This document shows positions 16,541 through 36,696 of a stretch of DNA of 38,372 bases, in pieces (the stretch's first letter is position 1; every line of letters starts with the position of its first letter). The position numbers and the translations under genes are program-made. The notes under the pieces were generated by a model, which saw only the letters and a list, made by a program, of their open reading frames with translations, ran no database searches and was not told where the DNA came from. Source of the DNA: a virus; the IMG/VR virus record IMGVR_UViG_3300032180_000099, positions 1-38,372 of that record. The stretch is one strand, 5' to 3'.

Positions 16541-18721
16541 CTAGCGGAACAGGGTATAGGCAGACAGGAAGTCGAAGACAGGAGTGGCGGCCCCCAGTGG
16601 TACCCACGTTCCGGACTCCACCTGAGCCGGCACGGGCGGAGAGGTATCGGTGGCGTACCAGATGGATCGATCCCCCGCCGCGGTGGCCGATGGGCGAGAG
16701 GCGACCAGACCGTATCCCGTGGGCGGCAGAGCGAGCGTGATTCGCAGATCCGTGATGTTGGCCGTGACGATGGACGAAGCGTTCGCAGCCACAGACACCA
16801 CCGCCAGCACGGCCTTGTTCGCTGGCACCGCCGGGTAGGCAGGTATTGCGGCTGGCGTGCCCGTGACCACCGCCACCGTCCCAGCGGAATCCACCGTCAC
16901 GAGGTCCAAGCGTGGATTCGTGGCGTCCGCAGCCGTGATGGAGACGCTAGTTGTGGTGGAGACAGCCACCGAACTTGCGTTCACCATCGCCGTACCGGAC
17001 GCCACATCCACAGTCATATTGGCACCCGACACGGGCTGAAGAGCGATGGTCACCCCGACCCACGAGGCGTTCGGGCTTACCGTACAGGTCTGAGCCACCG
17101 ACGCCCCGGCGGCAGCCTGTGCCGTATCGGAGGCGGCGAAGCCGGCGAACGAGCTGCTCCCCGTGAGGCTGACCCGGTTGGTGGCCGGGGGAGTGAGGGT
17201 CTCGGTGCCCTGCGAGTTGTTGGCCGAGGCGAAGAGGCTCACCACGGTTGAGTTGGCGGCCGTGGTGGTGACGCTGGGGGCCGTGACTGTCCCGCCGTCG
17301 CTGCCCGATACCTGTTTGGCCTCAACCGTTGATCCGACATTGCGGTAGGCCAGGAGGGCAAAGACCGATCCGCTAGAGAAGGTGGCAGACACAGTTGCGG
17401 CCCCTCCCGTGTCACCCGATACGGCCGTCTTGGTCCACACCACGAATCCGCACGTCACGGTGCCCGAGCCTGTGCCGCTGTCGAGAGAGGCATAGCCGGA
17501 TGGAGTGGAAGGGACCGAGGAGTTCCAAGCGAGCGCCACCAGGATCAGCAGATCCCCGACCTGCACCGAGGCCGGGATGGTGAGGGTCTTGGAGCCGCTG
17601 GCGGCGAAGATCGTATGTACCTCTGCCACGAACGTAGGCGCAGCGAGGGCATGTTGCGTAACCGCGCATCCCGACACGATCCCCGTGCGATTGAATCCCG
17701 CCACCAACGCCGCAAGGGGATTCGCCACGGACGGTCCCGGATACGCCCCCGCCAGATCCCCCGAAGCCGCCCCAAGCGGACCCGTGGCTCCCGTAGAGCC
17801 TGTCGGACCCGTACTTCCCGTTGGCCCAGTTGCACCAGTGCTCCCCGTGACGCCAGTTGGTCCGGTCACTCCGGTAGTTCCTGTGGGACCAGTGCTGCCA
17901 GTGGGGCCAGCAATCCCCTGGGCACCCGTCGCGCCGGTAGATCCCGTGGGGCCAATCACCCCCTGGATGCCCTGACTCCCTGTGGGGCCTGTCGGACCCG
18001 TAACGCCCTGCGGCCCAGTGGCACCTACCGCCCCGGCGACTCCCTGAGCACCCGTGGGTCCTGTCGGGCCTGCGACCCCTTGGGTTCCTTGACTGCCCGT
18101 TGGCCCGGTACTTCCTGTGACTCCCGTGGGGCCGGTCACGCCAGTTGGTCCGACAGCCCCGTCGGCTCCAGTAGGGCCAGTGCTACCCGTAGGGCCAGCT
18201 ACTCCCTGAATGCCTTGTACCCCGGTAGGCCCGACAACGCCTTGGATTCCTGTGGCTCCGGTAGCACCTGTCGGGCCAGTGGCTCCAGTGGAACCCGCCA
18301 CGCCCTGCATCCCTTGAGGACCGGTGCTACCAGTTGGTCCCGTAACACCCGCCGGGCCCTGAAGCCCCGTGGGCCCGGTCGGGCCAGTCGTACCCGCTGC
18401 ACCTTGGGCACCCGTGGCCCCTGTTGGGCCTACCGGTCCCTGCGGACCTTGGCCTCCGGTTGCTCCTGTGGATCCGGCGACGCCCTGAGACCCTTGAGGC
18501 CCTGTGGGTCCCGTTGCGCCTTGACTCCCTGTTGGCCCGATAGCGCCAGTAGGGCCGCTGACGCCTTGAGTGCCCTGGGACCCCGTGGGTCCTACGGGTC
18601 CAGTTGTTCCTGTTGGGCCTGTACCGGACGCGCCCGTGGCCCCAGAGATCCCAGTCGGTCCCGTAGGACCGGTGGGACCCTTGGGACCAGGGCCGAATAT
18701 CTCAATTTCGGAGACAGCCAA
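16541..18721 (-). CDS. Collagen-like tail fibre protein
   Basis: A 726-residue protein. Residues about 10-319 are almost unbroken Gly-X-Y triplets, mostly GPT, GAT, GVT and GSQ, with one early phase break near residue 33. This region should fold as a trimeric triple helix. A linker [20 protein letters not shown] marks the change to C-terminal beta domains (about 350-560 and 565-726), with [15 protein letters not shown] and [16 protein letters not shown]. Such stalk-plus-head chains are used as fibres or head appendages. The many Thr in the Y position are possible glycosylation sites, of interest beside the glycosyltransferase genes. The start is TTG 18721, right after an in-frame TGA, with a weak ribosome binding site. 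Confidence 0.85.
17765..18694 (-). repeat. Tandem Gly-X-Y codon repeats
   Basis: This is the coding region of about 103 collagen triplets. At the DNA level it is an irregular nine-base-scale repeat (GGN CCN ACN type on the minus strand) with varied third bases. It can expand or shrink by recombination, so its length may differ among relatives. It is explained by the protein and is not a CRISPR or satellite array. Confidence 0.85.
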
Positions 18722-18737: not shown

Positions 18738-18804
18738 TAGAATTGAGAGGCCGGGTAGCGCACGAACGCTCCCGGCCCAGCCGGTCCTACCAAGGAGAAC
18801 CGAC
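18738..18804 (+). promoter_or_regulatory. HNH1 leader: TAGAAT box, stem-loop, RBS hairpin
   Basis: A -10-like TAGAAT (18738-18743) is followed after five bases by a stem-loop at 18749-18777. This has a seven-pair outer stem (GGCCGGG/CCCGGCC), a one-base bulge, an inner AGCG/CGCT stem and a six-base loop. A second short hairpin pairs TCCT (18785-18788) with AGGA (18793-18796), which is the ribosome binding site of the GTG start at 18805. Leaders with the same plan precede the other two HNH genes. No -35 box is clear. Neither stem is followed by a T-run, so these are not ordinary terminators. Confidence 0.65.
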
Positions 18805-19578
18805 GTGCCTGAGCATACCTGTTCCGAGCCCGGATGCGACAATCCCGCCCACTCCCGCGGCTTCTGTCGTAGCCACTACATGACCCACAAACGGGCTGGG
18901 GACTTCGCTGATAACCCCAAGCATCGCCTGAAGCCATCCAAGCCCTGCCGGGAGCCTCAACTTGCAGATGCGCTAGACCCCGTATGCAACAAAGACGCAC
19001 ATTCTCACGGCCTGTGCATCTATCACTACCAGCAACGGCGGAGGCGCGGAATGCCCATGCCAGCGCCAGTCGCCGACACTCCAACCGAGAAACTCTGCCT
19101 AGATTGTGGACTAGTAAAACCTCTCTCCGAATTCTCCCGCATAAGTTCCTACGCTGACCGATACCGCCCCAACTGCAAGCCCTGTCGCGTCGTTGAATCT
19201 CGAAAGTACCGAGAGGCCAATCTTGAGAAGGTGACGGCATACCAGAAGCAGTGGCATCGGGACCATCCTGAAAAGATGAAGGCATATGCGAAGAAATCGA
19301 ATAGTCGTCCCGAGGCCAAGGCGAAAGCAAAGGCACGGCAGTTGGAATGGATAAAAACTCATCCCGGCCAGCGAGGAGCCAAACGAGCGGTCCAGTGGGC
19401 ATTGGAAGAGGGCGAGTTGATACGGCCCGACGCGTGCGACCGCTGCGAAAAGGTCGGGCCCCTACACGCGCACCACTACCGTGGCTACCATCCCACCCAT
19501 TGGCTAGACGTTGAATGGCTCTGCCCTCGCTGTCACTACTTCGCCAACCGGGAACCGAAACCAGACCACTATTTATGA
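18805..19578 (+). CDS. HNH1: zinc-knuckle HNH endonuclease (endonuclease VII-like)
   Basis: A 257-residue protein, GTG start. Domains in order: a Cys3His knuckle (C6, C11, C21, H24); a second, looped knuckle ending C61, C71, H74; a CxxC...CxxC ribbon (C98/C101 and C124/C127, containing KPLSEF); a very basic helical linker (about 130-200); and a C-terminal HNH domain with CDRC (211-214), HAHHYRGY, and WLCPRCHY (C240, C243, H244). The last resembles phage endonuclease VII-type nucleases. It is probably a free-standing homing endonuclease. It runs against the tail operon and its stop overlaps the end of the major tail gene by six bases (19573-19578). Confidence 0.8.
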   Translation: MPEHTCSEPGCDNPAHSRGFCRSHYMTHKRAGDFADNPKHRLKPSKPCREPQLADALDPVCNKDAHSHGLCIYHYQQRRRRGMPMPAPVADTPTEKLCLDCGLVKPLSEFSRISSYADRYRPNCKPCRVVESRKYREANLEKVTAYQKQWHRDHPEKMKAYAKKSNSRPEAKAKAKARQLEWIKTHPGQRGAKRAVQWALEEGELIRPDACDRCEKVGPLHAHHYRGYHPTHWLDVEWLCPRCHYFANREPKPDHYL

Positions 19579-20235
19579 AGCGGGTACGGCGATGGGTTCG
19601 CAGGATGCTACAGGGATGGCGGTGTCGTAGAACCAACCCAGGATGCGGTCCATGCCCAGGCCGGTGGGGCCGAGCGGCCAATCGCCGAAGGGACCGTTGT
19701 AGAAATTGGGCGACTCGTATGCAACAGCATCGACGGGAATAGTAGCAATGGCCTCCTTGAGGTCGATATCCCCTGCCGTCCACACAGTCTTTCCGCAGCC
19801 GAAGCGGATGTAGGGGCGGGTCGGATTCAGGTGCGCGCCGGTCCAGTTCTGCGCCCACACCTCAAAGGCAAGTCCATTGCCCGAAACCTGTCCCAACGCG
19901 GGCTCGTAGTAGCCCTCCACGTTGCCCCCGAACGAGATCAACTCGCCTCCGGTGAGGAATGAGAGCAACTCGGCGTCGAGCTGGCAGAGCGTCATGCTGA
20001 TCGTCATGCCGTCCACCTGGTCCGGCTGCTGGATGCTGACCTTCAGGTTGCCGCACCCGTCGTTCTGCTTGAACTTCGTCCCGGTCGTCTTGGACTTGAC
20101 GAACTTCACTTCGATGGGAGCGTTGGTCACGTAGGCGTTCCCTGCCCCCACCATTGGAAGCCCAAAGGCATCCAGCTTTGCTACCCGAATCGCGCAGGCC
20201 CCGAACGGGGTTCCGTTGCAGGTCAGGTTCGCCAT
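19573..20235 (-). CDS. Probable major tail (tube) protein
   Basis: A 220-residue protein; ATG 20235 is chosen for its strong GGAAAGGAGAG site. The pattern CAIRVAKLDAFGLPMVGAGN near the N-terminus, a middle LKVSIQQPDQVDGMTISMTL, then LCQLDAELLSFLTGGE, and a C-terminal NFYNGPFGDWPLGP segment resemble actinophage major tail proteins. It would polymerise around the tape measure to make the tail tube. It is unusual that it lies about 9 kb upstream of the chaperone and tape-measure genes instead of beside them. Its 3' end meets the oppositely oriented HNH1 gene. Confidence 0.72.
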   Translation of the reverse strand: MANLTCNGTPFGACAIRVAKLDAFGLPMVGAGNAYVTNAPIEVKFVKSKTTGTKFKQNDGCGNLKVSIQQPDQVDGMTISMTLCQLDAELLSFLTGGELISFGGNVEGYYEPALGQVSGNGLAFEVWAQNWTGAHLNPTRPYIRFGCGKTVWTAGDIDLKEAIATIPVDAVAYESPNFYNGPFGDWPLGPTGLGMDRILGWFYDTAIPVASCEPIAVPAS

Positions 20236-20278
20236 GCGATTACTCTCCTTTCCTCGTTCGGTACAGCACAATTACGGT

Positions 20279-20806
20279 TCATGCTGGGGTCACTGTCACT
20301 AGGTAGAGGACTGCCGCGCCCTGAGTCGAGCCGGGATCCAAACCGGCATTCGACCCGTCCTGCGAGACGCACACCTTGATAGGATCGGCGCTGGTGAACT
20401 TGGCAGGCACTTGGCGGATCCCCGTCCCGGGTCCATGTCCTGCAACAGCCGCCGCACTCTGTCCGATGTCGTTGGTCCCGAAGCTGACCAAGCTGGGGGA
20501 TACGCCGAACAGTGGACCGGCCGTGTCGAAGGTGCTGTCTGCCCTGGACATATCGACTCCACCGCCTACGTTCACCCACATGCCGAACGAGGCACTAACG
20601 AAGGTGCCTACATCGCCAGTAGGCGTTGTCCCATTCCAAGCCGTATCAACCTCGATCCATGCATCAAGCAGAATGTCACCAAGCGTCGGTGTGTAGAGCG
20701 CTGCACCTGTGAGGATGCCCGGAGTATCAAAGACAAAGGGGAACTTACGGACCACAGGTGAGCCAGCGCCACCTCCACCACCTCCTGGCGGAAAGGAGAA
20801 ACCCAT
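20279..20806 (-). CDS. Putative structural protein, 175 residues
   Basis: A protein starting with a Gly/Pro-rich stretch (FSFPPGGGGGGAGSPVV) followed by a beta-rich domain: GDILLDAWIEVDTAWNGTT, SASFGMWVNVGGGVD, and a C-terminal AAVLYLVTVTPA strand. This layout (GDxLLDxWIEVxTAW) is met in phage and decoration proteins of unknown role. The ATG directly follows the TAG of the upstream gene, with AAGGAGG inside that gene's last codons as ribosome binding site. It lies between two virion-type genes. It may decorate the capsid or tail. Confidence 0.6.
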   Translation of the reverse strand: MGFSFPPGGGGGGAGSPVVRKFPFVFDTPGILTGAALYTPTLGDILLDAWIEVDTAWNGTTPTGDVGTFVSASFGMWVNVGGGVDMSRADSTFDTAGPLFGVSPSLVSFGTNDIGQSAAAVAGHGPGTGIRQVPAKFTSADPIKVCVSQDGSNAGLDPGSTQGAAVLYLVTVTPA

Positions 20807-21967
20807 CTATGCCTCCTTGGCAGTGAATGCTTGGCCCGTTGTGGCCCCGATAATCGAGATGGCCTCGCTTGAGATCGGGGAATCCTCCATGACGAACGAT
20901 GACGGAGCAGGTGGCAGCCTGAGAGAGGGCTGACCGATCACCGCCGTGGTGGTGAAGTTGAACCACAGATCCCCCGACGACAGATTCTCGATCAGCAGGT
21001 ACCGTCGGCTCGTGTTCGCTGCCATCACGGTCTGAGCAGCCCCGCCGTTGGCGATGGTCCCCGAGTGGTCCACAAGGGCCTGCCCCACTCCCTCACCCCA
21101 CGGCTCTCCCACTCCCACCGCGACTCGGATCCCCAACAGGCAGCAGGGATCGACCACGACCGCGGCGAGGCTCTCGGCCCGGAAGGTCACGTCATTGCGG
21201 TCCCGGGCCACCGCCTGCCACATCGGGTCTCCCTCGTTCGGGTAGACCACAGGCTTGGAGCGGTAGACCTTGGCCGGGGCGGTGGCGTACATCCACTCCA
21301 CCGTTACGGACTCGATCCCCCCGCTCGGGCTCGTTCCGGGGAAGCCAGCGTCCGCCACGATGATGTTGTCCATGTGGGTGAAGGTCTGCTTGGACCCCGG
21401 GGGCCGGTAGAGGCCGGCAGCGAGGAAGAGGTTGAGATACACCCGGGCGGTGCAGTAGATCATCCCTCGGGCTCCGTGGAGGCACTCGCCGAGTTCCTGG
21501 TCGAGCAGCGCCACGGCCTCCGAGGGGATCATGACGGAACCGGGGTTCACGTCCGTCACGGCATTGCCCGCGGCGAGGTGGAAGGAGTTCGGCGCTATCG
21601 CCCCGGTCCAGAACTCATGGGCGATGACGGATGACTCCATTGCCCGGTGCTTGCGCAGTGCCCGCCCTACGTAGTCGTTGTAGGCGAACCCGAAGGTTGA
21701 GCAGGTATCGTCCACCGCCACGACGAACGGGTCCACGTCCTCGAGAACCGAGCGCGTTCCCTCCGGCTTGTGGACAGGGGCGCACACATCGTAGGCAGTC
21801 GGGTCACCCGTGCAGAGGATGGAGCGGAACTCCATCCCCAGTCCCCACCGCTGCCCGATCTCGGCCAGTTCCGCAGCGGTGGGTGAGAACGCCCCTTCGA
21901 TCAGGCTCTGGGTAGGGGGCAGGATGTCCGGGGCGAGGATCGGGACCCGGGGGCCGTTGACGCTCAA
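20807..21967 (-). CDS. Phage structural protein of unknown role with C-terminal beta domain
   Basis: A 386-residue protein with TTG 21967 overlapping the upstream TGA (TTGA). The N-terminal 290 residues contain DPFVVAVDDTCSTFGF, RALRKHRAMESSVIAHEFWT, a helical DQELGECLHGARGMIYCTAR, and strands VTVEWMYATAPAKVYRS and VVVDPCCLLGIRVAVG. The last 85 residues (TVMAANTSRRYLLIENLSSG, LWFNFTTTAV) are a jelly-roll-like add-on found on several phage structural proteins. The N-terminal part vaguely recalls capsid-type folds, but a different gene here is the clear major capsid protein. It could be a head vertex, minor capsid or tail component. Confidence 0.5.
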   Translation of the reverse strand: MSVNGPRVPILAPDILPPTQSLIEGAFSPTAAELAEIGQRWGLGMEFRSILCTGDPTAYDVCAPVHKPEGTRSVLEDVDPFVVAVDDTCSTFGFAYNDYVGRALRKHRAMESSVIAHEFWTGAIAPNSFHLAAGNAVTDVNPGSVMIPSEAVALLDQELGECLHGARGMIYCTARVYLNLFLAAGLYRPPGSKQTFTHMDNIIVADAGFPGTSPSGGIESVTVEWMYATAPAKVYRSKPVVYPNEGDPMWQAVARDRNDVTFRAESLAAVVVDPCCLLGIRVAVGVGEPWGEGVGQALVDHSGTIANGGAAQTVMAANTSRRYLLIENLSSGDLWFNFTTTAVIGQPSLRLPPAPSSFVMEDSPISSEAISIIGATTGQAFTAKEA

Positions 21968-22974
21968 GGTGTCACCCCGGCAGCAAGTCTCATGGCGTCA
22001 GCCTCCTCATCCAGTGCCACGATGGCCGCCGCAGCACGTTCGGCAGACCGACCATCCATGTGGGTGTAAACATGCGACATGTCCACCCGGCCGTAGCCCC
22101 GTAGGGCGTCCCCCACGGCGGGGACCAACTGCCACGGCTCCCGGGCCTCAAGGTAAGGTCGAGAGTGAAAGTCGTGGCCGAACCGGATCCCGTGGTCCAC
22201 GTCCCGGTACCACGGGGGCGTCATCCACACCACCGGCTTGCCCACCGCCATGGCCTCGAACCCGACCGAGCTGTTGTCGGTACAGAGCACATCGGCCGAG
22301 GTCATCACCGTCTCATAGTCGGCCCACACGATCCCGAGGGAGTCGTAGAGCCAGGAGACGAGGTTGCGAGCTCGGGGATGGGCGTGGCCGATGACGGTGT
22401 ACCGCGAGGTCAGATCGGCCAGCGCGGATTTGAAATGCGGCAGGGCCGAGCGGGTCTCGGGACAGAGTTGGTTCTCCCAGTGCCACGCGAGAGCCACGAT
22501 GGGATGAGCGTTCATCGGCTGTGGGGGATTGAGTAGCCACCGATCCAGGACGGGGCAGCCGATCTCTGCTACCGGAGTGTGGGGATACCGCTCCCTCGTG
22601 CGTTGCGCCGGACGTAGGCCGGGCACGAGGAACAGGTCCACCCGGTCCTGGTTGTCCCCGCCGGCATAGGAGGGGCAGCGGTTCACCCCCGGATCGCTGT
22701 CGGCCCCGTAGGACTGACCTGCCCCGTGCTGAGCCAAGATCACCCGTCGGTAGCCCGACACGGCCTGATAGTCGATGTGAGAGGCCACGAGAACCCTCGG
22801 ACCACGGGACATCAGCCTTGAGTCCTTGGGCTTGGCCCCCGCGGCCATCACCCCAGCGTCGTCCAGAAGCCTGCCGCTCACGTAGAGTGTCCCCCGGTGC
22901 TCAGACGGCAGTGCTTCCCAGATCGGCAAGAGATGACGAGCGTACTGAGGCTGGGAGCAGTAGGCGTCGATCAC
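21964..22974 (-). CDS. CDP-glycerol glycerophosphotransferase-like glycosyltransferase
   Basis: A 336-residue GT-B-type protein. The C-terminal half has the hallmark of the TagB/CDP-glycerol transferase group: YTVIGHAHPR, then ADVLCTDNSSVGFEAMAVGK followed by PVVWM. The N-terminal half has RVILAQHGAGQSYG, which matches the acceptor-side HGxG region of these enzymes. Known relatives build or modify teichoic-acid polymers with glycerol phosphate. It starts with GTG 22974 overlapping the upstream gene (GTGA). In this cluster it may put a charged group on virion glycans, or change host wall polymer. The substrate is inferred from family only. Confidence 0.72.
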   Translation of the reverse strand: MIDAYCSQPQYARHLLPIWEALPSEHRGTLYVSGRLLDDAGVMAAGAKPKDSRLMSRGPRVLVASHIDYQAVSGYRRVILAQHGAGQSYGADSDPGVNRCPSYAGGDNQDRVDLFLVPGLRPAQRTRERYPHTPVAEIGCPVLDRWLLNPPQPMNAHPIVALAWHWENQLCPETRSALPHFKSALADLTSRYTVIGHAHPRARNLVSWLYDSLGIVWADYETVMTSADVLCTDNSSVGFEAMAVGKPVVWMTPPWYRDVDHGIRFGHDFHSRPYLEAREPWQLVPAVGDALRGYGRVDMSHVYTHMDGRSAERAAAAIVALDEEADAMRLAAGVTP

Positions 22975-24056
22975 GGGGCCACCAACTCCCTCGCCGCGCT
23001 CTCCAAGACGGCTAGCCAGCGGGGACGAAGAACGTTCCAGTCGATGCTGGCTGCATAGGCATCCGAGGCAGCCGAGAGGCGTGCGACCGTGGCGGGGTTC
23101 TCGACAAGGCGGTCCATAGCGGCTGCCAACTCTCGAGGTACCACGTCCTCGAGGAACATCACCCCGCTCTGAAACCTCGCCGGCCTACCGGGAGTGATGG
23201 GGACCAGCCCCTCCGTGGGCAGGGTAGACGACTCGGGTTCCCGGTTGCCGGCCAGAATCGCCAGCCCACACGACGCGGCCTCCTGAAGCGGCAAGGACAG
23301 CCCTCCGTACCGTCTAGGAGCCACCAGCACGTCGTAGCCCGCATAGAGGTCCCGGGGATCCTCGATATCGCCCTTCAGGATGGCCGGAATACGGTTGCGG
23401 GGCAGCGAGCGGAGGCGGAGGTCCTGGGGGGCCGAGAGCGGCCCCTGGGTCCGGATGGTGAGGTCGATGCGGTTGCGGAGGAACCGCAGGGCGTCCAGCA
23501 CGATCTCCGTCCCGGCCCGGTCCCGCATGGCCTGATGCCCCACGACGTGCAGGAAGCGCGGGGGGTCCCCCAGCGGCCGAGGCGAGAAGGCGAAGACTCC
23601 CCTATCGACCGGCTGGGGGACATGGATGGCACCGGGGATCGTGCCCAGCCGCCAAGGCGAAGGCAGGACGATCTGGTCCGGTCCCACCCCCACAAGCTTG
23701 TCGGGCCCCAGGAATTCCGGGTTTGCTACCAGCACGGTCCGGACCCCCATCTCTCGTGCCCATCCCCATGCCCGGTGGTCGTAGGCGGTCTCGGCCGTGA
23801 GCAGCACATCCACGTCGGTCAGGAGCCAGCGGTAGGCATCCTCGTCTACAGTCCCGGAGTGGCCGTTAAAATCGGCGCTCGGGATGCCCGGATACCACTC
23901 GGCCTGCCGTTCGACGTAGGGCGTCCAGGACCCGTGCGGGTTGGTCATTCGTATGTGGAGCGTCTTGGCCGGGTTCAGGTGACGGAAGTAATCTCTTGTC
24001 TGGGTCCCCAATCCTCTGTGGTCGGACCGAACCAGCAGCGCGATGCGGATGGTCAT
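22971..24056 (-). CDS. GT4-family glycosyltransferase
   Basis: A 361-residue GT-B enzyme. The N-terminal domain starts RIALLVRSDHRGLGTQTRDY and carries DVDVLLTAETAYDHR. The C-terminal nucleotide-sugar domain has FLHVVGHQAMRDRAGTEIVL, LYAGYDVLVAPRRYGGLSLP and LQEAASCGLAIL, the conserved Glu region of GT4 enzymes. It most likely transfers a hexose from an activated donor. It overlaps both neighbours through ATGA/GTGA and belongs to the modification cluster between the capsid and tail-tube genes. Confidence 0.82.
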   Translation of the reverse strand: MTIRIALLVRSDHRGLGTQTRDYFRHLNPAKTLHIRMTNPHGSWTPYVERQAEWYPGIPSADFNGHSGTVDEDAYRWLLTDVDVLLTAETAYDHRAWGWAREMGVRTVLVANPEFLGPDKLVGVGPDQIVLPSPWRLGTIPGAIHVPQPVDRGVFAFSPRPLGDPPRFLHVVGHQAMRDRAGTEIVLDALRFLRNRIDLTIRTQGPLSAPQDLRLRSLPRNRIPAILKGDIEDPRDLYAGYDVLVAPRRYGGLSLPLQEAASCGLAILAGNREPESSTLPTEGLVPITPGRPARFQSGVMFLEDVVPRELAAAMDRLVENPATVARLSAASDAYAASIDWNVLRPRWLAVLESAARELVAP

Positions 24057-24310
24057 TCGAGTAGCCCCGGATCAGGAATGAAGACAACCGTCCGTTCTCC
24101 AGCGGCGTCTTCAACCGCACGCCATGCCTCTACCTCGTTTAGCAGCCGCAGGACATCAAGGCGCGCAGCTTCAGGATCGCCCACGTAGCGATTCGGGTTC
24201 TCCGTGAGACGCCACCGGATCTCCGCCAACTCGTGATGGGAGAGCAGATCGGTCGGCAGATGGTAGGGGTTCTCAGCCCGTCGTCGCCGCTCTGCGGCAG
24301 CCTCGCTCAT
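24053..24310 (-). CDS. Small helical protein, 85 residues, unknown
   Basis: ATG 24310 overlaps the stop of the upstream glycosyltransferase (ATGA), and the stop overlaps the next glycosyltransferase start. The protein is Arg/Glu-rich and mostly helical: AAAERRRRAENPYHLPTDLL, HHELAEIRWRLTENPNRY, RLDVLRLLNEVEAWRAV. No family is recognised. Tight coupling on both sides suggests it supports the glycosyltransferases, for example as an adaptor, but this is inference. Confidence 0.6.
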   Translation of the reverse strand: MSEAAAERRRRAENPYHLPTDLLSHHELAEIRWRLTENPNRYVGDPEAARLDVLRLLNEVEAWRAVEDAAGERTVVFIPDPGLLE

Positions 24311-26025
24311 GCCGGTACCTCGGCCGCCACGTTGGGCCACTTTGGCTCATCCCCCCGGCTGTTGAGGTGGGTTGAGCGCTTCATATCGCCCAAGGGGCTA
24401 TAGATGGCGAGTCTCCAGCGGTTCCAAGCCGGGATGCGGTGGTCGAACCAGTCGTTCTCTGCTGCCTGGTAGAGCCGGTCCTCGATCATCGTGCGCTCCC
24501 GGGGATCGAAGTGGTCCTCCAGGAAGACCTTCAGCGTGACGGCGCGGATCACATGAGGGTGCTGCCACCACGCCATCGTGCGTCGGATCGGAACCCCGTC
24601 CCACGACACAGCGTGGTCCTCGAGCATCAGGTGGGCATGGTCGGGGTGGATCTCTGGGGACTCGTGGAGCCGCACGACGTTCACCCGGCCCGACTGCACG
24701 AGGCCGCAGATCCCGGCCCAGTCGATGATGCCCAAAGGAGGCCGGTCGTGCTCCACGAACAAGATCAGTGGCGTGCGGACCAACTTGAGGGCCTGCCGGG
24801 TCAACTCGGCCTGGGCGAGCCACTCAGGGGCAAGGAACGGAACGGTGTTGCGCCACTCGAAGTTACATAGCCAAGTGACACGACGGAGGTACTCGTCATA
24901 ACTGGCCCGCATGTCCTCCTGCTCGGGCCGTACCCCGTCGGCCGCAATGATGATCTCCGCGTGGGGGAGCTGGTTGCGGATGGCCGAGATCGTCGTGTCC
25001 AGATCGGCCGTCGATGGATGGACCGGTGTAGGGCTGGTGGTGACGATGACACTCAGGAGTTCGTCGGGCGTCTCGGGCTGGAAGGTAGAGCCGCTCACGG
25101 CCCGGAGGTCGTTGTGGAGCTTGTGGACTGTGGAGCGCTTCCACTGCTGCCACCACGCGCTCAGGCGGTTCGCGTTGGTAGGCCAGTCGGCGAGCTCCCG
25201 GCGCAGGATGGCGGGGAAGTCGCTCCACTCCCGGATCCGGGGCAGCGGGCAGTCGTCGCCGAAGCACAGGGCCCAGTAGTCGTAGGACTCGCCCCGGGGC
25301 GTCACGGTGTCCACCACAGGCACGCACCCGGCCTCTAGGGCTTCCAAGGGCCTCGCCGTATCGACCGTGCAGGGACCGGACGGGCAGGGGATGACCTTGG
25401 CGCTGCTCAGGAACGCCATGTACTCGGGCATCGGCACCCCTTGGAGGTAGCCAGCCGTCTCGATCAGGCGGCACGGGAAGTCCGTGACCATGCCCCGCAG
25501 CACCTTCGTTGCCTCCTGCCGGCGTTCGTGCGTCACCTGGCCCCCGAAGAACCAGTCGAGCGGACGGGGACCGAGCACGCCATGCGGGCGGATTCCCTGA
25601 CGGGTCCCGGGATACCAGCCTCCGGGGAGCATCCCATCCATGCCCTCGTGCTCGGGGCGGGGCTGCATACACCAAACGCGCCTGTTCGGTCCCGGAACCA
25701 TGTGGGCTGGGAAGGCCCACTCCTCGTCGCCAGCGAGGATCACCACAGACCACGAGAGGCGCCCCAGTTGCCCTAGGAACCACGCCACGTCCGCTTCCGA
25801 GGCATGGTGGCGGGCGGGCAGCACCACGAGCGCCCCGTCCACATCCGGGAAGGCGTCGGGGTACGTACTGCCCGGTCGGCCCACATCTACGTAGTGCTCG
25901 AAGGTGAAGGCCCCGGGCGGATCCCATACCTGGCCAGCGAGGACGGCTTCGAGGAAGCCCATGTCGGCGTATTTGTGCGATAGCACATCTGTGTGTCTTG
26001 ACACGAAGATGAGAGGGATCCTCAT
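24307..26025 (-). CDS. Exostosin (GT47)-like plus GT2-like glycosyltransferase fusion
   Basis: A 572-residue protein. Residues about 150-260 resemble the exostosin domain: LDWFFGGQVTHERRQEATKV, then MPEYMAFLSSAKVIPCPSGP and ARPLEALEAGCVPVVD. Residues about 315-500 look like a GT2-type domain: LSVIVTTSPTPVHPS, AEIIIAADG, and LILFVEHDRPP in place of the usual DxD strand. A C-terminal tail follows. Exostosin-like enzymes transfer sugars from nucleotide donors. The ATG has an AGGAGGGCAGC site. Residues 1-17 resemble the broken peptide at 27282-27344 on the far side of HNH2. The GT2-like half is a weaker assignment. Confidence 0.75.
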   Translation of the reverse strand: MRIPLIFVSRHTDVLSHKYADMGFLEAVLAGQVWDPPGAFTFEHYVDVGRPGSTYPDAFPDVDGALVVLPARHHASEADVAWFLGQLGRLSWSVVILAGDEEWAFPAHMVPGPNRRVWCMQPRPEHEGMDGMLPGGWYPGTRQGIRPHGVLGPRPLDWFFGGQVTHERRQEATKVLRGMVTDFPCRLIETAGYLQGVPMPEYMAFLSSAKVIPCPSGPCTVDTARPLEALEAGCVPVVDTVTPRGESYDYWALCFGDDCPLPRIREWSDFPAILRRELADWPTNANRLSAWWQQWKRSTVHKLHNDLRAVSGSTFQPETPDELLSVIVTTSPTPVHPSTADLDTTISAIRNQLPHAEIIIAADGVRPEQEDMRASYDEYLRRVTWLCNFEWRNTVPFLAPEWLAQAELTRQALKLVRTPLILFVEHDRPPLGIIDWAGICGLVQSGRVNVVRLHESPEIHPDHAHLMLEDHAVSWDGVPIRRTMAWWQHPHVIRAVTLKVFLEDHFDPRERTMIEDRLYQAAENDWFDHRIPAWNRWRLAIYSPLGDMKRSTHLNSRGDEPKWPNVAAEVPA

Positions 26026-26042
26026 GCTGCCCTCCTAAGAGA

Positions 26043-26120
26043 TAGAATGGAGGGCACTAAAGACCCCGCGACGTGGCAACGCCCGGGGCCGTGGCCGATC
26101 CCTTGTGGGAGGAATCGACA
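26043..26120 (+). promoter_or_regulatory. HNH2 leader: TAGAAT box, stem-loop, RBS hairpin
   Basis: TAGAAT at 26043-26048 is followed after 13 bases by a stem-loop at 26062-26090. This pairs GACCCC with GGGGCC and GACG with CGCC around a six-base loop, with one A-C mismatch in each arm. Its layout (outer stem, bulge, four-pair inner stem, six-base loop) matches the HNH1 and HNH3 leaders. TGGCCGATCC follows, shared with HNH3. TCCC (26099-26102) can then pair with GGGA (26107-26110), part of the GGGAGGA ribosome binding site. The A-C mismatches make this copy the weakest of the three. Confidence 0.55.
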
Positions 26121-27281
26121 ATCAGTAAGCCTACCTGTTCCGTCTCTTGGTGCGACCGAGCGAGTGCCACCCGGGGACTGTGCGCCTCTCACTACGCCAG
26201 ACTTCAGCGTGGCCAAGAACTCGAGACTCCTTGGGACACGCGTCGCCTGAATAATCAACGGAACAACAAGCCACCCAAGATCTGCTCTGTAACCGGCTGC
26301 GACAAACCCGCGCGGGGGCGAGGCTGGTGCTGGACCCACTACGCGCGCTGGCAGGCATCCGGAGATCCAGGTTCCGCCGAATTGGTTCGTAAACCTAAGG
26401 GCACCGTACTTTGCTCTGTGGACGGATGTATCTTGCCGACCAAGGCCCGAGGGTGGTGTGCCTCCCATTACGCCCAGTGGCGAACCGGTCGACCGCTTAC
26501 TCCGCTGCCGTCGAAATCGGTGCGCCCCTTGTGCTCCCGATGTGGTCTGCCTATTGAGACACGGAGTCACAGTCCAAAACGGCACGCGGCCTGCCGTTGG
26601 GACGACGCACGAGAGAAATCCGCTGCCAAGCCCATACAGGAGTGCTCTGTCAATGGCTGCTCCCGACCAGTACACGGACGTGGGTGGTGCGCCGCTCACT
26701 ACGAACGCTGGGCTAACCATGGAGTGGTCTCCCCATTGGAGCCGATTCGGAATCGAATCGTGGGAATACATGAGTGCACCGTCGACGGATGCGCTAAGCC
26801 TGCCAACGTTAAGGGCCTTTGTGACATGCACTACGCGCGTCAGCGGCGATGGGGTGTACCAGGTGGGCCCGCTCTCCTCAAGGAGTACCGCCGGTTCGAT
26901 CTCGGCACGCCCGATGAGCGATTCTGGGGCTTGGTCCGTCGAGGTGAGACCGGCTGTTTGGAATGGCAAGGATGCGTCAAGGGAACCGGGTACGGCTGGT
27001 TCACTGTCTACGGTCGTAAGATGTCTGCGCATCGGTGGTCGTACGAGCGGTTCCTTGGCCCTATCCCCGTTGGCTTGCATATTGACCATACATGCCACAC
27101 CAATGATTTGACCTGTCCCGGAGGGCCTTGTCGGCATCGAAGGTGCGTAGATCCGATGCACCTCGAGGCAGTCACCCCGGCGGAGAATGCCCGTCGTGCT
27201 CGCAGACGAGAGGCCGGACTGAACCCCTACATTGATTCTGTCTACGCAGCCGCCTTCGAGGCGTCGCGACTCAGGATCTGA
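26121..27281 (+). CDS. HNH2: multi-knuckle HNH_3-type endonuclease, ATC start
   Basis: A 386-residue protein if it begins at ATC 26121. It carries five good Cys3His knuckles (C6/C11/C21/H24, C55/C60/C70/H73, C98/C103/C113/H116, C175/C180/C190/H193, C219/C224/C234/H237), typically CSVxGCxxPxxxRGWCxxHY, plus one decayed copy near 138-155. The C-terminal domain (about 268-360) is HNH_3-like: FWGLVRRGETGCLEWQGC, then SAHRWSYERF, GLHIDHTC, and CVDPMHLEAVTPAENARR. The ATC is placed exactly where HNH1 and HNH3 have GTG, and the first knuckle then has the same residue numbers as in HNH1. Upstream in-frame GTG (26073, 26091) or TTG codons exist but would translate the hairpin region. Confidence 0.75.
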   Translation: MSKPTCSVSWCDRASATRGLCASHYARLQRGQELETPWDTRRLNNQRNNKPPKICSVTGCDKPARGRGWCWTHYARWQASGDPGSAELVRKPKGTVLCSVDGCILPTKARGWCASHYAQWRTGRPLTPLPSKSVRPLCSRCGLPIETRSHSPKRHAACRWDDAREKSAAKPIQECSVNGCSRPVHGRGWCAAHYERWANHGVVSPLEPIRNRIVGIHECTVDGCAKPANVKGLCDMHYARQRRWGVPGGPALLKEYRRFDLGTPDERFWGLVRRGETGCLEWQGCVKGTGYGWFTVYGRKMSAHRWSYERFLGPIPVGLHIDHTCHTNDLTCPGGPCRHRRCVDPMHLEAVTPAENARRARRREAGLNPYIDSVYAAAFEASRLRI

Positions 27282-27298
27282 TCCTCGGCTCAGGATCT
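27270..27298. repeat. Short direct repeat CTCAGGATCT
   Basis: CTCAGGATCT occurs at 27270-27279 and again at 27289-27298, spanning the HNH2 stop codon. The copies are exact and 19 bases apart. They may be a scar of the recombination that placed HNH2 here, but a ten-base repeat can also arise by chance. Confidence 0.4.
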
Positions 27299-27344
27299 CC
27301 GCTCGCCTGCTAACCCAGAGCGTGGGGATCTTGATGGCCCTCAC
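27282..27344 (-). pseudogene. Broken 5' end of a glycosyltransferase gene
   Basis: Starting at GTG 27344, which overlaps the stop of the small Cys-rich gene (GTGA), the minus strand encodes VRAIKIPTLWVSRRAEILS. This aligns with MRIPLIFVSRHTDVLS, the first residues of the GT47-like protein beyond HNH2, with seven identities and about five conservative changes in 16 positions. The match ends at the HNH2 stop codon, after which the frame runs antisense through HNH2. It looks like the original or a paralogous start of the glycosyltransferase gene, separated from its body by the HNH2 unit. Confidence 0.5.
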
Positions 27345-27457
27345 CTTGCCTCCTTGGGGCCAGAGCGGATGACGCCGTGCTTGGGGCAGGTGGCCACGCC
27401 GAAGCGGTAGACGATCCGCTCCTTGCAACCCTTGGCAGGACAGGAGATCGTCACCAT
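27341..27457 (-). CDS. Small zinc-ribbon-like protein, 38 residues
   Basis: This is an ATG 27457 frame overlapping the FkbM-like gene stop by seven bases. The peptide contains CPAKGCKERIVYR and ATCPKHG, giving C6, C11, C24 and H27. This is the same C-x4-C-xn-C-x2-H order as the HNH knuckles, though without the terminal Tyr. The tight overlap, strand and metal-ligand pattern argue that it is a real gene despite its size. Its function is unknown. Confidence 0.55.
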   Translation of the reverse strand: MVTISCPAKGCKERIVYRFGVATCPKHGVIRSGPKEAR

Positions 27458-28284
27458 GAGGCGTCTTCCCGCCGTAGCCACACCGATTCCTGCCGCCACC
27501 CGTTGACCGTCCCGGCCACGTCTCCCGTCAGGCGGGTCAGGTCTCGCTCAGGGTCCTTCAGGCGGTGGGGAGGGATTGCCTTGGGCGGCAATGTGTAGAC
27601 CACGTACCCGAGCGCCATGACGGACTCCACCAGCTCGCCATAGCCGGGAGCGAAGACTGGGGAGCACTCGACCAGCAGGTGATCCACGAGGCCGACCTCG
27701 AGCGACGGGCGCAGGATCCGGATGCCGTCGAACTCGGCTCCTTCGAGGTCCAGCTTGGCGAGGCGGTACTCCGCTGCCGGCAGGGGGATGGTGTCGGGCC
27801 CGAGGCGGAGATGCCAGGGGTGGACGAGGCTGTCCCACCCGTTCCGCTTCGCCGAGTCGGCAAGGAGCCGCAGCGGTTCCGGGTCGGCGTCCACCGAGAT
27901 CGCCTCGTGGCCATAGGAGGCTGCCAGCAGGGAGTACCACCCGATCTGCGCTCCCAGGTCGATAAACACAGACCCCGGGAGCGCAGACTCGAACACCGTG
28001 AGGGCAAGGATTGTCTCGGGGGGCTCCCAAATCCCCAGCAGGTCGATGGTCTCGGAGACCGCATCGTGGCCGGGGCAGTAGGGGCCGTCGCCGTATTCCC
28101 GCCACTCGAAGACGCACATCTCGAAGTCCCGGGCGAACCGGGCAGGAACGGGAGGGTAGTCGTGGTAGCCGCTCTGGCCTCCCAATCGCACCTCGGCCAA
28201 CTTGTATAGGTGGGCGTCGTGGCCTCGCTGGCAGGCGATATCGGCCCAAACGCTCATGTCGTTCGGGTGCGGAGCCGTCTTCAC
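27451..28284 (-). CDS. FkbM-family SAM-dependent methyltransferase
   Basis: The core is a Rossmann methyltransferase: VFESALPGSVFIDLGAQIGW (motif I), AISVDADPEPLRLLADSA, then AKLDLEGAEFDGIRIL, the FkbM KxDxEGxE motif, and VDHLLVECSP. FkbM enzymes O-methylate sugars or polyketides, which fits a glycan-modifying cluster. I prefer GTG 28284 (277 residues), which overlaps the upstream stop as GTGA. A GTG at 28374 would add 30 plausible residues (YDARLWEFLRQHV...) and a longer overlap. The stop overlaps the small Cys-rich gene. Confidence 0.8.
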   Translation of the reverse strand: MKTAPHPNDMSVWADIACQRGHDAHLYKLAEVRLGGQSGYHDYPPVPARFARDFEMCVFEWREYGDGPYCPGHDAVSETIDLLGIWEPPETILALTVFESALPGSVFIDLGAQIGWYSLLAASYGHEAISVDADPEPLRLLADSAKRNGWDSLVHPWHLRLGPDTIPLPAAEYRLAKLDLEGAEFDGIRILRPSLEVGLVDHLLVECSPVFAPGYGELVESVMALGYVVYTLPPKAIPPHRLKDPERDLTRLTGDVAGTVNGWRQESVWLRREDASW

Positions 28285-28559
28285 AGTGCCTCCCGAGGTC
28301 CGACACCAAGGGGCGACATGCTGACGCAGAAACTCCCACAGCCGGGCGTCATATGGTGATGAAGTTTGGCCCACTCCACATTGACCGGTCGGCACCACGC
28401 CCCTTGGCAACATGGCGACTGGAGTGCGTCCATGCAGTATTGGATCTGCTCCCGAGGGAACTCCTGCCAGCACTCGGTACAGATCAGGGTCGATGCTGGG
28501 ATGGAGGCAACTACCTCCTCCACATACACATCCCACGCGTTGGCAGGTGGTGGTCTCAT
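28281..28559 (-). CDS. Small Cys-rich protein, 92 residues
   Basis: ATG 28559 overlaps the upstream methyltransferase stop (ATGA). The protein has ICTECWQEFP (CxxC) followed by a CMDALQSPCCQGAWC cluster, a probable zinc-binding unit, then a His-rich LHHHM stretch. The last 25 residues are in a region where the downstream methyltransferase frame may also be coding, so the exact end is uncertain. The family is not recognised. Its position between two methyltransferases suggests a helper role. Confidence 0.5.
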   Translation of the reverse strand: MRPPPANAWDVYVEEVVASIPASTLICTECWQEFPREQIQYCMDALQSPCCQGAWCRPVNVEWAKLHHHMTPGCGSFCVSMSPLGVGPREAL

Positions 28560-29200
28560 GGTTTTCCCGCGGTCACCCACGCCCACGACTCGTCCACGTT
28601 CCCGAAGTCCACCATCGTCACCGCAAGCCCAGCGTCTCGGCACCAGCCCTCAACGGCGGTGACGCGTACCCCGTGCGAGAGGAAGTGATCCACCTCGGAC
28701 ATGACGAACTGGAGCCGCACCACCCCGTCTGGCTCGAGCTTGGCCGCAATGGACCGGACGTAGCCTTCCTGCGCCTCAGCCGGGAGGTGCTGGAGGGTCA
28801 GGACCGAGAAAGCCCCGGCTAGGCGAGCGAGAGTCCGGGGAAGCGTTCGTCCGTTCCCGATCATGAACCGGGTATTGGGGACTCCCATCTCCTCGGCGAC
28901 ATTGCGGGCCGTGTGAATCATCTTGGGCGAGAGGTCCACGCCGATGATGGTGGCGTCTGGGAAGCGCTCGGCAAGGGGAAACGTGAGGCGGCCAGGGCCG
29001 CAGCCGAGGTCGAGAATCCTGCCTCCCTTGCGGAGTGCCGGCGTCAGGGCCGGGACGATCTGGGCGAGGCAGGCGTCGATCCCGGCCTCCCACCCGTCGA
29101 TGCCGGGGACCGAGAAAAGTTCGCCCCGGCCATTCCCCACAGCGGAGGCATCCCAATAGGCGCGTTCCGCCTCCACGTCTTCGGTCATCGCCACACTCAC
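28556..29200 (-). CDS. Class I SAM-dependent methyltransferase
   Basis: A 214-residue protein with a standard methyltransferase fold: GGRILDLGCGPGRLTFPLAE (motif I, SAM binding), ATIIGVDLSPKMIHTARNVA, FSVLTLQHLPAE and LEPDGVVRLQFVM. The upstream part YWDASAVGNGRGELFSVPG is typical of small sugar or lipid methyltransferases. The GTG 29200 overlaps the glycosyltransferase stop (GTGA); ATG 29188 is an alternative. It probably methylates a glycan made by the neighbouring transferases. Confidence 0.82.
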   Translation of the reverse strand: MSVAMTEDVEAERAYWDASAVGNGRGELFSVPGIDGWEAGIDACLAQIVPALTPALRKGGRILDLGCGPGRLTFPLAERFPDATIIGVDLSPKMIHTARNVAEEMGVPNTRFMIGNGRTLPRTLARLAGAFSVLTLQHLPAEAQEGYVRSIAAKLEPDGVVRLQFVMSEVDHFLSHGVRVTAVEGWCRDAGLAVTMVDFGNVDESWAWVTAGKP

Positions 29201-30291
29201 GGCACCGCCACTTTCCGCCGCTCGTGGGCCTCTAAGGCCATCGGGACGACCCAACTAAGGCGTTCTCTGTACGTGTGGTTCTCCCGTACGTGCGCCTGTC
29301 CCTGCTCGGCGATCTGGCGTCGTTCGTCCTTGTGCTTGAGGTAGTGGGCGATCAGCCGGTCCAACTCGGCCCAGTCCCCGAGCGGCCAGTAGCGGAGGTG
29401 AACCCCGTCCTGGTACAGATCCTCCAACCCCTCGTTGTAGGGGTGAAGAAAAATAGCGGTATTTGTCCTCGCCAGCGTTTCTGGAATGCGGTCCGAATGA
29501 AACGCTCTGCTCCCCGGCGTCATGAACGAGTCCCCAATCACCACGTCAACCGAGGCGTAGAGGTCCGAGAGAGCCGCACCCCGGATCTGCTCCCGCTTGG
29601 GCCAGAATCCCGTCTGGGGCCATCGGCGCTGAAGGTGGTTCACCAAGTCCATCCGGTGAGTCCACTCGGGATGGTAGTGGCCCCGCCACGACCCTACGAA
29701 CGCCACGGGAGCCCGGTACTCGGGCCGGGGAGTACCCGAGACCGCCTCGGCATGGTAGACGGCTGGCGGGCACCACACAGCGTTGATCCCCGCCTCCTGC
29801 CATCGTCCCCCACCCTCGTCCGCGGTACAGAACAAATCGGACCTGAAAAAAGCCTCCGTGGGAATGCGGTCTGCTCGCCCGTCCCGCACGTCCCACCACT
29901 TGTCGAGGTGGTAGGAGAGGGTGGGGATGCCCGAGGCCCGCAGATCCGCGATGGCTTGGTGCCGTTCCTCGCTCGTGCCCCCCGTGACTGCGAACCCGTA
30001 CGTCTGGACCCAGCAGAACAGGTCGGTACCGAAGTCCCGCGCGCGCTGGCACACGTCCACGGCCCGCACCTCGCCTTCCTGGAGCCGTTCGACGGTATGG
30101 CCGAGCGACTCCAAGGACAGGGCGAGATGCACCTCTGTGGCCCACCTCGTGGGATGAGTCGGGCTGGGCTGAAAACCGGGCTGGTGATTTCCCCAGAGAG
30201 CAATACGGAGACCGGCCGCGCCCGAAGCCACCGGGGCGAACTGCTCGGGCACGACCGTCTCCTGTCCCACCTCTATGCCGCCCTCGAACAT
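29197..30291 (-). CDS. CgeB-like (GT4-type) glycosyltransferase
   Basis: A 364-residue protein starting at ATG 30291, preceded by AAGGAACC. The N-terminal half has LRIALWGNHQPGFQPS and THPTRWATEVHLALSLESLG. The C-terminal half has VAFVGSWRGHYHPEWTHR, LYASVDVVIGDSF, RIPETLARTNTAIFLHPY, and DERRQIAEQGQAHVRENHTY. The HTY end and the FVGS...R strand are hallmarks of CgeB/DUF3880-type glycosyltransferases, which also occur in virion- and spore-glycosylation loci. It is the first gene of the modification cluster, separated from the capsid gene only by the opposing HNH3 unit. Confidence 0.75.
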   Translation of the reverse strand: MFEGGIEVGQETVVPEQFAPVASGAAGLRIALWGNHQPGFQPSPTHPTRWATEVHLALSLESLGHTVERLQEGEVRAVDVCQRARDFGTDLFCWVQTYGFAVTGGTSEERHQAIADLRASGIPTLSYHLDKWWDVRDGRADRIPTEAFFRSDLFCTADEGGGRWQEAGINAVWCPPAVYHAEAVSGTPRPEYRAPVAFVGSWRGHYHPEWTHRMDLVNHLQRRWPQTGFWPKREQIRGAALSDLYASVDVVIGDSFMTPGSRAFHSDRIPETLARTNTAIFLHPYNEGLEDLYQDGVHLRYWPLGDWAELDRLIAHYLKHKDERRQIAEQGQAHVRENHTYRERLSWVVPMALEAHERRKVAVP

Positions 30292-30342
30292 GAGGGTTCC
30301 TTCATGCTCCACTTTGGGCGCTTGGCTGTCGGCACGCAGCCG

Positions 30343-30410
30343 TAGAATGGAGCGGTCCCCACAGCGTTATCGCGCTTGGGGACCTGGCCGATCCTGATAG
30401 GAGGACCGAC
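30343..30410 (+). promoter_or_regulatory. HNH3 leader: TAGAAT box, stem-loop, RBS hairpin
   Basis: TAGAAT (30343-30348) is followed after five bases by a stem-loop at 30354-30384. Its outer stem is GGTCCCC/GGGGACC, its inner stem AGCG/CGCT, with a six-base loop and small bulges. TGGCCGATCC follows, then TCCT (30392-30395) pairing with AGGA (30399-30402), which is the ribosome binding site before GTG 30411. The outer stem differs from that of HNH1 at most positions while keeping its pairing, and the inner stem is identical. No clear -35 is present. Confidence 0.65.
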
Positions 30411-31508
30411 GTGCCCAAGGGTACACCGAACACCGAGCCGTTCTGCTCGTTCCCCAACTGCGGCAAGCCCAACCGGAGCAAGGGTCTGTGCGGTGGGCAC
30501 TACGCCCAACTGCTCAAGGGCAAGCCCCTGACGCCTCTCGTCAAGCCCCCGCCCGATCCGACCTTGCCCCGGGAGTGCCTGACCTGCCATGAGGTCAAGC
30601 CGATCTCCGAGTTCTACATGCGGTCGGACGGGTTGCCTGACCGGCACTGCAAGCGGTGTGCTGGCGATGCCATGAAGCCCGGAGCAGCCAAGCGACGTCG
30701 GGAAGCGGGGATGAAGGAACGGCGCCTGCGGGTAGTGACCACCATCAACGGCACCGAAGGACAAGAGTGTTCGTGGTGTCGAGAGTGGAAACCCCTGACC
30801 GACTACTACGCCTTTACGTCCAAACGGGACGACTACGCAGGACATCTGGCCGAATGCAAGGAATGCACCAAGGGCCGACGCAAGGTCGCCGCACGGCAGA
30901 GAGAAGGGTTCCGGCCCAACATGCCCGCGATGGGTGAGGATCCCCTGATCGTTGCGGCTCGACAGGTTCGTTTCCAGCAAGCTGGCAAGGGCGCTGAGGC
31001 GTACCGGAAGGGTAGAGCCAAGGATCCAGAACGGTACCGGAATTACAGCCAGCAGCGGAGAGCGCTGGTTGCGAACGCGCCTGTGAACGACCTGACCGGC
31101 GAGCAGATAGCCGAGTTGATGACAGCGCAGGCTGGCATCTGCGCCTACTGCCACCACTTCGCCACGCCTCTTGTGGTCGAGCACATCGTGCCTCTGGCCC
31201 GTGGAGGCTCCCACACCCTGTCGAACGTGGTGGGAGCGTGCGACCGGTGCAACGGCGAGAAGCACAACCGAACGCCGGAAGAGTGGGCCGCGGCCCGTCG
31301 GCGCAAGGCGATTCGGATGGGGATGGATCCTGATGCCCTCTTCCACATCTACGATCCCCGGGACATGCAGGGACAGAGCCAAGAGGCCCCATCCCTGCAA
31401 ACGCCCGGTGAGGATTACGAACCTCCGCAAGCGGCCAGCGTCGTCGGGGCTGAAGTCCACCCATTGGGGCATACGGTGAAACTCAGACCAAGTGCCTCAA
31501 CACCGTGA
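30411..31508 (+). CDS. HNH3: zinc-knuckle classical HNH endonuclease
   Basis: A 365-residue protein, GTG start. An N-terminal Cys3His knuckle (C12, C17, C27, H30) is followed by two CxxC...CxxC ribbons (C56/C59 with C80/C83, and C120/C123 with C149/C152), each with a KPxxxxY/F element. A basic region follows, then a classical McrA-type HNH domain: CAYC (244-247), VEHIVPLARGGSH, LSNVVGACDRCNGEKHNR. It is probably a free-standing homing endonuclease. The last 31 codons overlap the 3' end of the major capsid gene on the other strand (31415-31508), so its extreme C-terminus is constrained by the capsid sequence and may not be functional. Confidence 0.82.
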   Translation: MPKGTPNTEPFCSFPNCGKPNRSKGLCGGHYAQLLKGKPLTPLVKPPPDPTLPRECLTCHEVKPISEFYMRSDGLPDRHCKRCAGDAMKPGAAKRRREAGMKERRLRVVTTINGTEGQECSWCREWKPLTDYYAFTSKRDDYAGHLAECKECTKGRRKVAARQREGFRPNMPAMGEDPLIVAARQVRFQQAGKGAEAYRKGRAKDPERYRNYSQQRRALVANAPVNDLTGEQIAELMTAQAGICAYCHHFATPLVVEHIVPLARGGSHTLSNVVGACDRCNGEKHNRTPEEWAAARRRKAIRMGMDPDALFHIYDPRDMQGQSQEAPSLQTPGEDYEPPQAASVVGAEVHPLGHTVKLRPSASTP

Positions 31509-33818: not shown

Positions 33819-34031
33819 TCAGAGGTAGAGCACGAGGAAGGTTGTCACGCCGATCAGTCCCTCAATCACCGTCAGCCGCCACGCCATCTGGCGAGAGGAG
33901 ATATCGATGAAGTGCTTGGTCCACCATCCACCATTCCAGCCCAGCGTCAGATTGAGGCCAGCCCACACGACTGCCGTACCCGCCACTGCAAGGAAGGCCA
34001 GCGACAGGGCTGCCCAGAGAGGCGCTCTCAC
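33819..34031 (-). CDS. Small two-helix membrane protein
   Basis: A 70-residue protein from GTG 34031, overlapping the protease stop (GTGA). Hydrophobic segments are at about residues 5-28 (LWAALSLAFLAVAGTAVVWA) and 54-70 (LTVIEGLIGVTTFLVLYL), separated by a Trp-rich loop (GWNGGWWTKHF). The size and topology suit a class II holin-like protein, but it lies among head genes far from the lysin. The role is unknown. Confidence 0.6.
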   Translation of the reverse strand: MRAPLWAALSLAFLAVAGTAVVWAGLNLTLGWNGGWWTKHFIDISSRQMAWRLTVIEGLIGVTTFLVLYL

Positions 34032-36565: not shown

Positions 36566-36696
36566 CCTCCTCGCTCTCTTCGACGGATTGAGATGGTCTC
36601 CTTGACGTAGCCCCACAGGAATGCACCGACGCTCCAACCTAGAAGCATGCCTAGGCCCCCGGTCAGCAACTGCCAGCCCGTCAGGTCGATGTGCAA
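36562..36696 (-). CDS. Small single-span membrane protein, 44 residues
   Basis: This short frame starts at TTG 36696 behind AGAGGA. It encodes a hydrophobic segment (LLTGGLGMLLGWSVGAFLWG) followed by a basic tail (SIRRRERGG). Its TGA overlaps the protease ATG (ATGA), and its start lies within the 3' end of the upstream membrane-protein gene. This tight packing, the membrane helix and positive-inside tail support a real gene. Function is unknown. Confidence 0.5.
   Translation of the reverse strand: MHIDLTGWQLLTGGLGMLLGWSVGAFLWGYVKETISIRRRERGG

Follow-up and report, generated by a model that had tools for sequence, protein, structure and literature searches.

The nearest analogue in place and host to the leader described here is the SAS/ESAS system of cluster K mycobacteriophages, which consists of a fixed 13-bp consensus, GGGATAGGAGCCC, and 17-bp imperfect repeats, for whose pairing as RNA the authors see little support (PMC3203893, PMC11373665). 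Homing endonuclease genes of the T4 type, i.e., I-TevI, I-TevII, I-TevIII, segB, and mobE, carry RNA hairpins, and a late promoter is placed such that late transcripts lack one arm and cannot form the hairpin (PMC2988022). In Aeromonas phage 25, a stable hairpin is located just upstream of the SD of the homing endonuclease gene seg43(25) (PMC2988022).

The window analyzed here, i.e., the whole stretch of 38,372 nucleotides of the viral record IMGVR_UViG_3300032180_000099, contains three HNH genes on the plus strand amid capsid, tail, and glycosyltransferase genes on the minus strand (Table 1). An HNH or related nuclease domain, the domain by which free-standing homing endonucleases are recognized, was found in the window genes. 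A collagen-like repeat protein (Pfam Collagen; 16541-18721, minus strand) is encoded divergently from HNH1, and the ORF at 34028-36637 (minus strand) combines an N-terminal 2'-5' RNA ligase superfamily domain with a C-terminal portal-protein match. The ORF at 1055-1354 (minus strand) was considered as a leaderless endonuclease VII and rejected; its translation is a winged-helix protein, and thus it is unusable as a control.

Table 1. Leader features and HNH genes in the window.
Feature	Position	Strand	Remarks
TAGAAT, likely -10 box of HNH1	18738..18743	+	exact in all three leaders
HNH1 hairpin 1: 7-bp outer stem, 1-base bulge, AGCG/CGCT inner stem, 6-base loop	18749..18777	+	fold z -4.61, covariation
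HNH1 hairpin 2 over SD: CG..TCC/GAA..CG, one C.A mismatch	18782..18802	+	register from 8-copy alignment
HNH1 start GTG and conserved coding bases GTGCCTGAGCATACC	18805..18819	+	motif A+8, T+12, A+13
HNH1: zinc-knuckle N-terminus, endonuclease VII/phrog_2340-type core	18805..19578	+	
TAGAAT, likely -10 box of HNH2	26043..26048	+	
HNH2 hairpin 1, two A.C mismatches	26062..26090	+	covariance model 60 bits (HNH2 is a seed member)
HNH2 hairpin 2 over SD, CGAT..ATCG	26096..26117	+	register from 8-copy alignment
HNH2 start position: ATC in place of ATG/GTG, then coding motif ATCAGTAAGCCTACC	26121..26135	+	
HNH2: five knuckles, HNH_3 core	26121..27281	+	
TAGAAT, likely -10 box of HNH3	30343..30348	+	
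HNH3 hairpin 1	30354..30384	+	fold z -6.02, covariation
HNH3 hairpin 2 over SD, CG.TCC/GGA.CG	30389..30408	+	register from 8-copy alignment
HNH3 start GTG and conserved coding bases GTGCCCAAGGGTACA	30411..30425	+	motif A+8, T+12, A+13
HNH3: knuckle N-terminus, HNH_5 core	30411..31508	+	

The leaders of HNH1, HNH2, and HNH3 share one order: a TAGAAT box, a bulged stem-loop (hairpin 1), an SD-covering hairpin (hairpin 2), and the start. A sequence-only reading had placed TAGAAT before each HNH gene and a stem-loop at each of the hairpin 1 positions in Table 1, and both placements hold. With both strands searched, the window has a single extra TAGAAT copy, at 1526, and exact matches of TAGAATNGAG are restricted to the three HNH leaders. 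The box stands at a fixed distance in the three leaders, similar boxes occur in the leaders of two relatives, G001 and G003 (see below), and no clear -35 box was found; TAGAAT is likely the -10 box of the three genes. The same reading had also claimed that pairing is kept while the sequence changes. This agrees with the three-leader alignment, in which 6 of 15 pairs show double changes, a number matched by one of 500 shuffles. All three also share a single bulged base on the 5' side where outer and inner stem meet, a feature absent from that reading. The claimed identity of HNH1 and HNH3 extends to the inner stems, whereas the loops (CACGAA versus TTATCG) are equal in length only. Taken singly, the hairpins 1 of HNH1 and HNH3 fold far better than shuffled sequences (z -4.6 and -6.0); hairpin 1 of HNH2 alone, with its two A.C mismatches, is no better than shuffles (z -0.85).

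For the search of relatives, covariance models were built from the three window leaders (R1), six leaders (R2), and eight leaders (R3). The sequence-only reading had called for such a search, and it yielded further leaders with more compensating changes. R1 scores 50.8 bits on L012, a leader that precedes an endonuclease VII gene in a phage contig without portal match to the window (one of the downstream proteins scanned below matches Pfam Endonuclease_7). In G001, a relative of the window (capsid 72%, portal 78% identical), R1 finds two leaders, one before a TnpB gene and one before a 59-aa ORF. G001 also matches both the 2'-5' RNA ligase and the portal parts of the window ORF 34028-36637. 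Its TnpB gene leaves one contig end and resumes at the other (L134, L256), so that the contig likely is a circular or circularly permuted whole genome. G003, a second close relative, has two leaders by R2: one, beside the capsid gene, precedes a counterpart of HNH3 (58% identical) at the same place as HNH3, the other a broken HNH1-like gene. Over four metagenomic phage records, eight leader matches reach at least 31 bits, with the next best at 19.6.

Among 27 annotated phage records scanned with R3, six copies were found in cultured phages: Microcystis phage MinS1 (42 bits; before an HNH gene), Gordonia phage Malisha (41, 41, and a weak 27 bits; before gp15 endonuclease VII, gp34 HNH, and gp60 of unknown function), Brevibacterium phage Rousseau (35 bits; before an HNH gene), and Arthrobacter phage Sarge (29 bits; before gp64 GIY-YIG). 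These leaders end at annotated starts or in frame with them. In Malisha (L344), the annotated starts of gp15 and gp34 are 9435 and 26678 and the leader implies 9450 and 26750; the annotated starts are probably 15 and 72 bases too far upstream, in frame. R3 gives no match at other HNH genes of these phages (Malisha gp29, Sarge gp50 and gp66). A weak match in Jinkies (25 bits with R2, 21 with R3) was discarded, as it appears to be a common long hairpin upstream of a glutaredoxin-like gene.

In viral contigs, an exact DNA pattern of the full leader has no match outside the window, a looser one returned L012 among chance matches, and two more pattern scans gave, besides L012, only chance matches at the patterned site. 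Blastn of the leader against phages found nothing relevant. With HNH3 alone as query, no relative was found in viral contigs, and HNH3 together with its G003 counterpart retrieved only that counterpart; the TnpB search returned only the G001 gene itself. A scan with R2 of 38 capsid relatives of the window gave G003 as the sole positive.

The register of hairpin 2 was tested on eight sequences. The pairing TCCT/AGGA of the sequence-only reading, 71% paired and without a double change, was dropped in favor of NCC/GGN', three bases further 3', which is 92% paired and covaries; its outer pair occurs as U-A, A-U, and G-C among the eight copies. The broader claim, a leader of two covarying hairpins that covers the ribosome binding site, is confirmed at scale. 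In an alignment of 79 copies, which was fitted to the model, standard pairs fill 97.2% of 1240 cells, and compensatory double changes, 217 cells in all, are seen in 14 of 16 pairs. None of 500 shuffles, which ignore phylogeny, equals the pairing or the covariation score, and slid controls reach at most 51%. The 14 phage copies by themselves, likewise in model-fitted alignment, are 94.4% paired with double changes in 11 of 16 pairs. The outer pair of the SD hairpin reads AU in 41, UA in 19, CG in 7, and GC in 6 of the 79 copies. ATG or GTG stands exactly where the model ends in 73 of the 79. Of about 1200 paired cells, only 6 are G-U, an unusually low count for RNA that may in part reflect the seed model.

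Since the covariance model stops at the start codon, conservation beyond it provides an independent check. The combination of A+8, T+12, and A+13 is present in 90% of 73 leader genes versus 0.4% of 458 control ORFs from the loci of leader genes, often accompanied by C+14 and G+15. T+12 is a third codon position, and hence, the constraint acts on the nucleotide. Bases +8 to +15 have no evident pairing partner within the leader. In HNH2 no ATG, GTG, or TTG fits the leader at 26121-26123 (plus strand), and the frame is open for 385 codons. The ATC found there is followed by the same coding motif and thus marks the start position of the gene; it seems to be a rare start codon, the mark of a silenced gene, or a sequencing error.

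In total, about 90 copies of the leader were found in actinobacterial phages and genomes. In an Acidimicrobiaceae MAG (L257), R3 scores 49.9 bits upstream of an ArdC-like gene. Two tandem c-di-GMP-II riboswitch matches (L257:2454-2763; 55.5 bits, and 38.1 bits, just below the cut-off) lie shortly downstream of that gene. In the Acidimicrobiales-type order, 50 of 397 genomes match at E <=0.01, with about 75 copies and a maximum of five per genome; in a sample of its phylum, matches at E 0.001 were obtained in 24 of 396 genomes. At E 1e-5, 28 of 397 genomes of the order match, versus one of 395 in the class of a Streptomyces genome. Upstream of hairpin 1, near the likely -10, many chromosomal copies (L277, L279, L280, and L304) carry a perfect palindrome with arms of 7-8 bases, e.g., GCTTGACG..CGTCAAGC, whose sequence differs from copy to copy. 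These palindromes are possible operators.

The genes behind the leader are more varied than the sequence-only reading had assumed. Its link to endonucleases stands in phages, where HNH, endonuclease VII, GIY-YIG, or TnpB genes, including one remnant, follow 12 of the 14 copies; restriction to knuckle-HNH genes does not, given the other nuclease types and, in genomes, HTH, integrase, ArdC-like, and many unknown proteins. The proteins encoded downstream of the leader (64 in all, of which bacterial genomes contribute 61) were scanned against Pfam, with matches to HTH_17 (11), XRE-type HTH (6), phage integrase domains, ArdC-N, NERD, HNH, and endonuclease VII. Many of the 64 have no Pfam match, and several of these look, by eye, like tyrosine recombinases. 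With genome cargo this broad, the label mobilome is partly assigned by eye. One weak copy (L343) precedes a pyruvate:ferredoxin oxidoreductase gene, plainly non-mobile, and may be a chance match. That the nuclease opens the leader with its own zinc knuckles, as had been suggested, is unlikely, given such varied cargo and the lack of knuckles in most downstream proteins.

No Rfam 15 family matches the leader, neither at the gathering threshold for the window and L012 nor at E 1 for eight loci, and a search of full-text literature, with most subscription papers outside its coverage, found no description of it; the suggestion that it is unrecorded stands. Like SAS/ESAS, it is an actinophage start-codon element that recurs in front of different genes, with an upstream inverted repeat, a short conserved SD element adjoining the start, and a promoter inside or next to it. 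In contrast to the fixed consensus there, sequence varies here while pairing is kept, and the element enters the coding region. The window SD regions AAGGAGAACCGAC, GGGAGGAATCGAC, and AGGAGGACCGAC do not match the SAS consensus with up to two mismatches at the start, and fixed-consensus 17-bp repeats of the ESAS type were not found; the leader arms vary with pairing kept. The likeness to the T4 type is an RNA hairpin hiding the SD of a phage endonuclease gene, as part of the SD falls within the predicted hairpin 2 stem. However, the late-promoter layout is absent: TAGAAT, the likely promoter, lies upstream of both hairpins in the window leaders, and here a single family recurs across cargo types. 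The hairpin of seg43(25) resembles hairpin 1 in position, but it is an isolated case, and no second hairpin is described for it.

We read the leader as a cis-acting mRNA element that controls translation of mobile genes in actinobacteria and their phages, with a probability of roughly 0.6 on sequence grounds. A likely sigma-A-type promoter lies immediately upstream of each copy, and the transcript would therefore start at hairpin 1 or a short distance before it. Hairpin 1, in which a one-base bulge separates a variable outer stem from a 4-bp inner stem with a 6-8-base loop, is followed by hairpin 2, whose stem (NCC/GGN') includes part of the SD and would occlude it in the cell; the element continues past the start codon to about +15 (NTG NNN RAN NNT ACG). 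It thus covers the ribosome initiation site, on which a repressor or an activator of translation would act. The structure and its place at the start codon are shown by the sequences, and the regulation is inferred. An element between likely promoter and start codon that spans this site makes translation control the simplest reading. Up to five copies per genome before unrelated genes most likely imply a shared trans-acting reader. This putative RNA-binding protein or small RNA would keep nucleases and recombinases low or timed. The imperfect hairpin 1 of HNH2 and the scarcity of G-U pairs speak against translation control.

A leader without regulation would be a ready-made expression cassette, its 5' hairpin protecting the mRNA and its initiation site fixed and efficient. 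Hairpin 1 lies near the likely 5' end, and promoter, leader, and start move together, in front of genes and in phages that are unrelated to each other, as such a cassette would. For an efficient start site, however, a hairpin that covaries and includes part of the SD is unexpected, as are the conserved bases +8 to +15, and we consider this explanation unlikely, if a serious one. The inverted repeats might instead act in DNA, as folded single strands or protein sites, e.g., when recombination exchanges the cargo downstream of an unchanging 5' end. The mobile context with cargo exchanged behind one leader would fit, as would the near absence of G-U pairs; such a role is nevertheless improbable, since hairpin 2 is built round the SD, the register with SD and start codon is fixed in 73 of 79 copies, and the varying arms leave no single duplex binding site. 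A ligand-binding riboswitch would likewise be a 5' leader with conserved structure, but the element is short and conserved in stems rather than loops, its genes share no metabolic theme, and no Rfam riboswitch matches it, which makes this very improbable. Chance hairpins in GC-rich DNA, which the HNH2 fold alone would allow, are refuted by the covariation in the 79 and in the 14 phage copies and by the coding motif outside the model; their likelihood is negligible.

Under translation control, the leader probably sets how much of nucleases and other gene-moving proteins is made. More tentatively, and at clearly lower confidence, one translational operator, composed of two hairpins and the first five codons and read by one conserved host factor, may restrain the mobilome: phage endonucleases and integrase, excisionase-like, and other mobile genes in several actinobacterial groups. 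If true, these genes would form a regulon whose defining mark is an RNA element at the start codon. Structured RNA families tied to mobile genes as a group are few, and this recurrent, strongly covarying leader family suggests a mobile-gene regulon. A separate puzzle is posed by the conservation of bases within the coding region. As the leader is present in cultured phages of laboratory hosts (Gordonia terrae, Arthrobacter globiformis), its function is testable now. It is usable as a start-codon marker and provides a handle on how phage nucleases stay harmless until needed.
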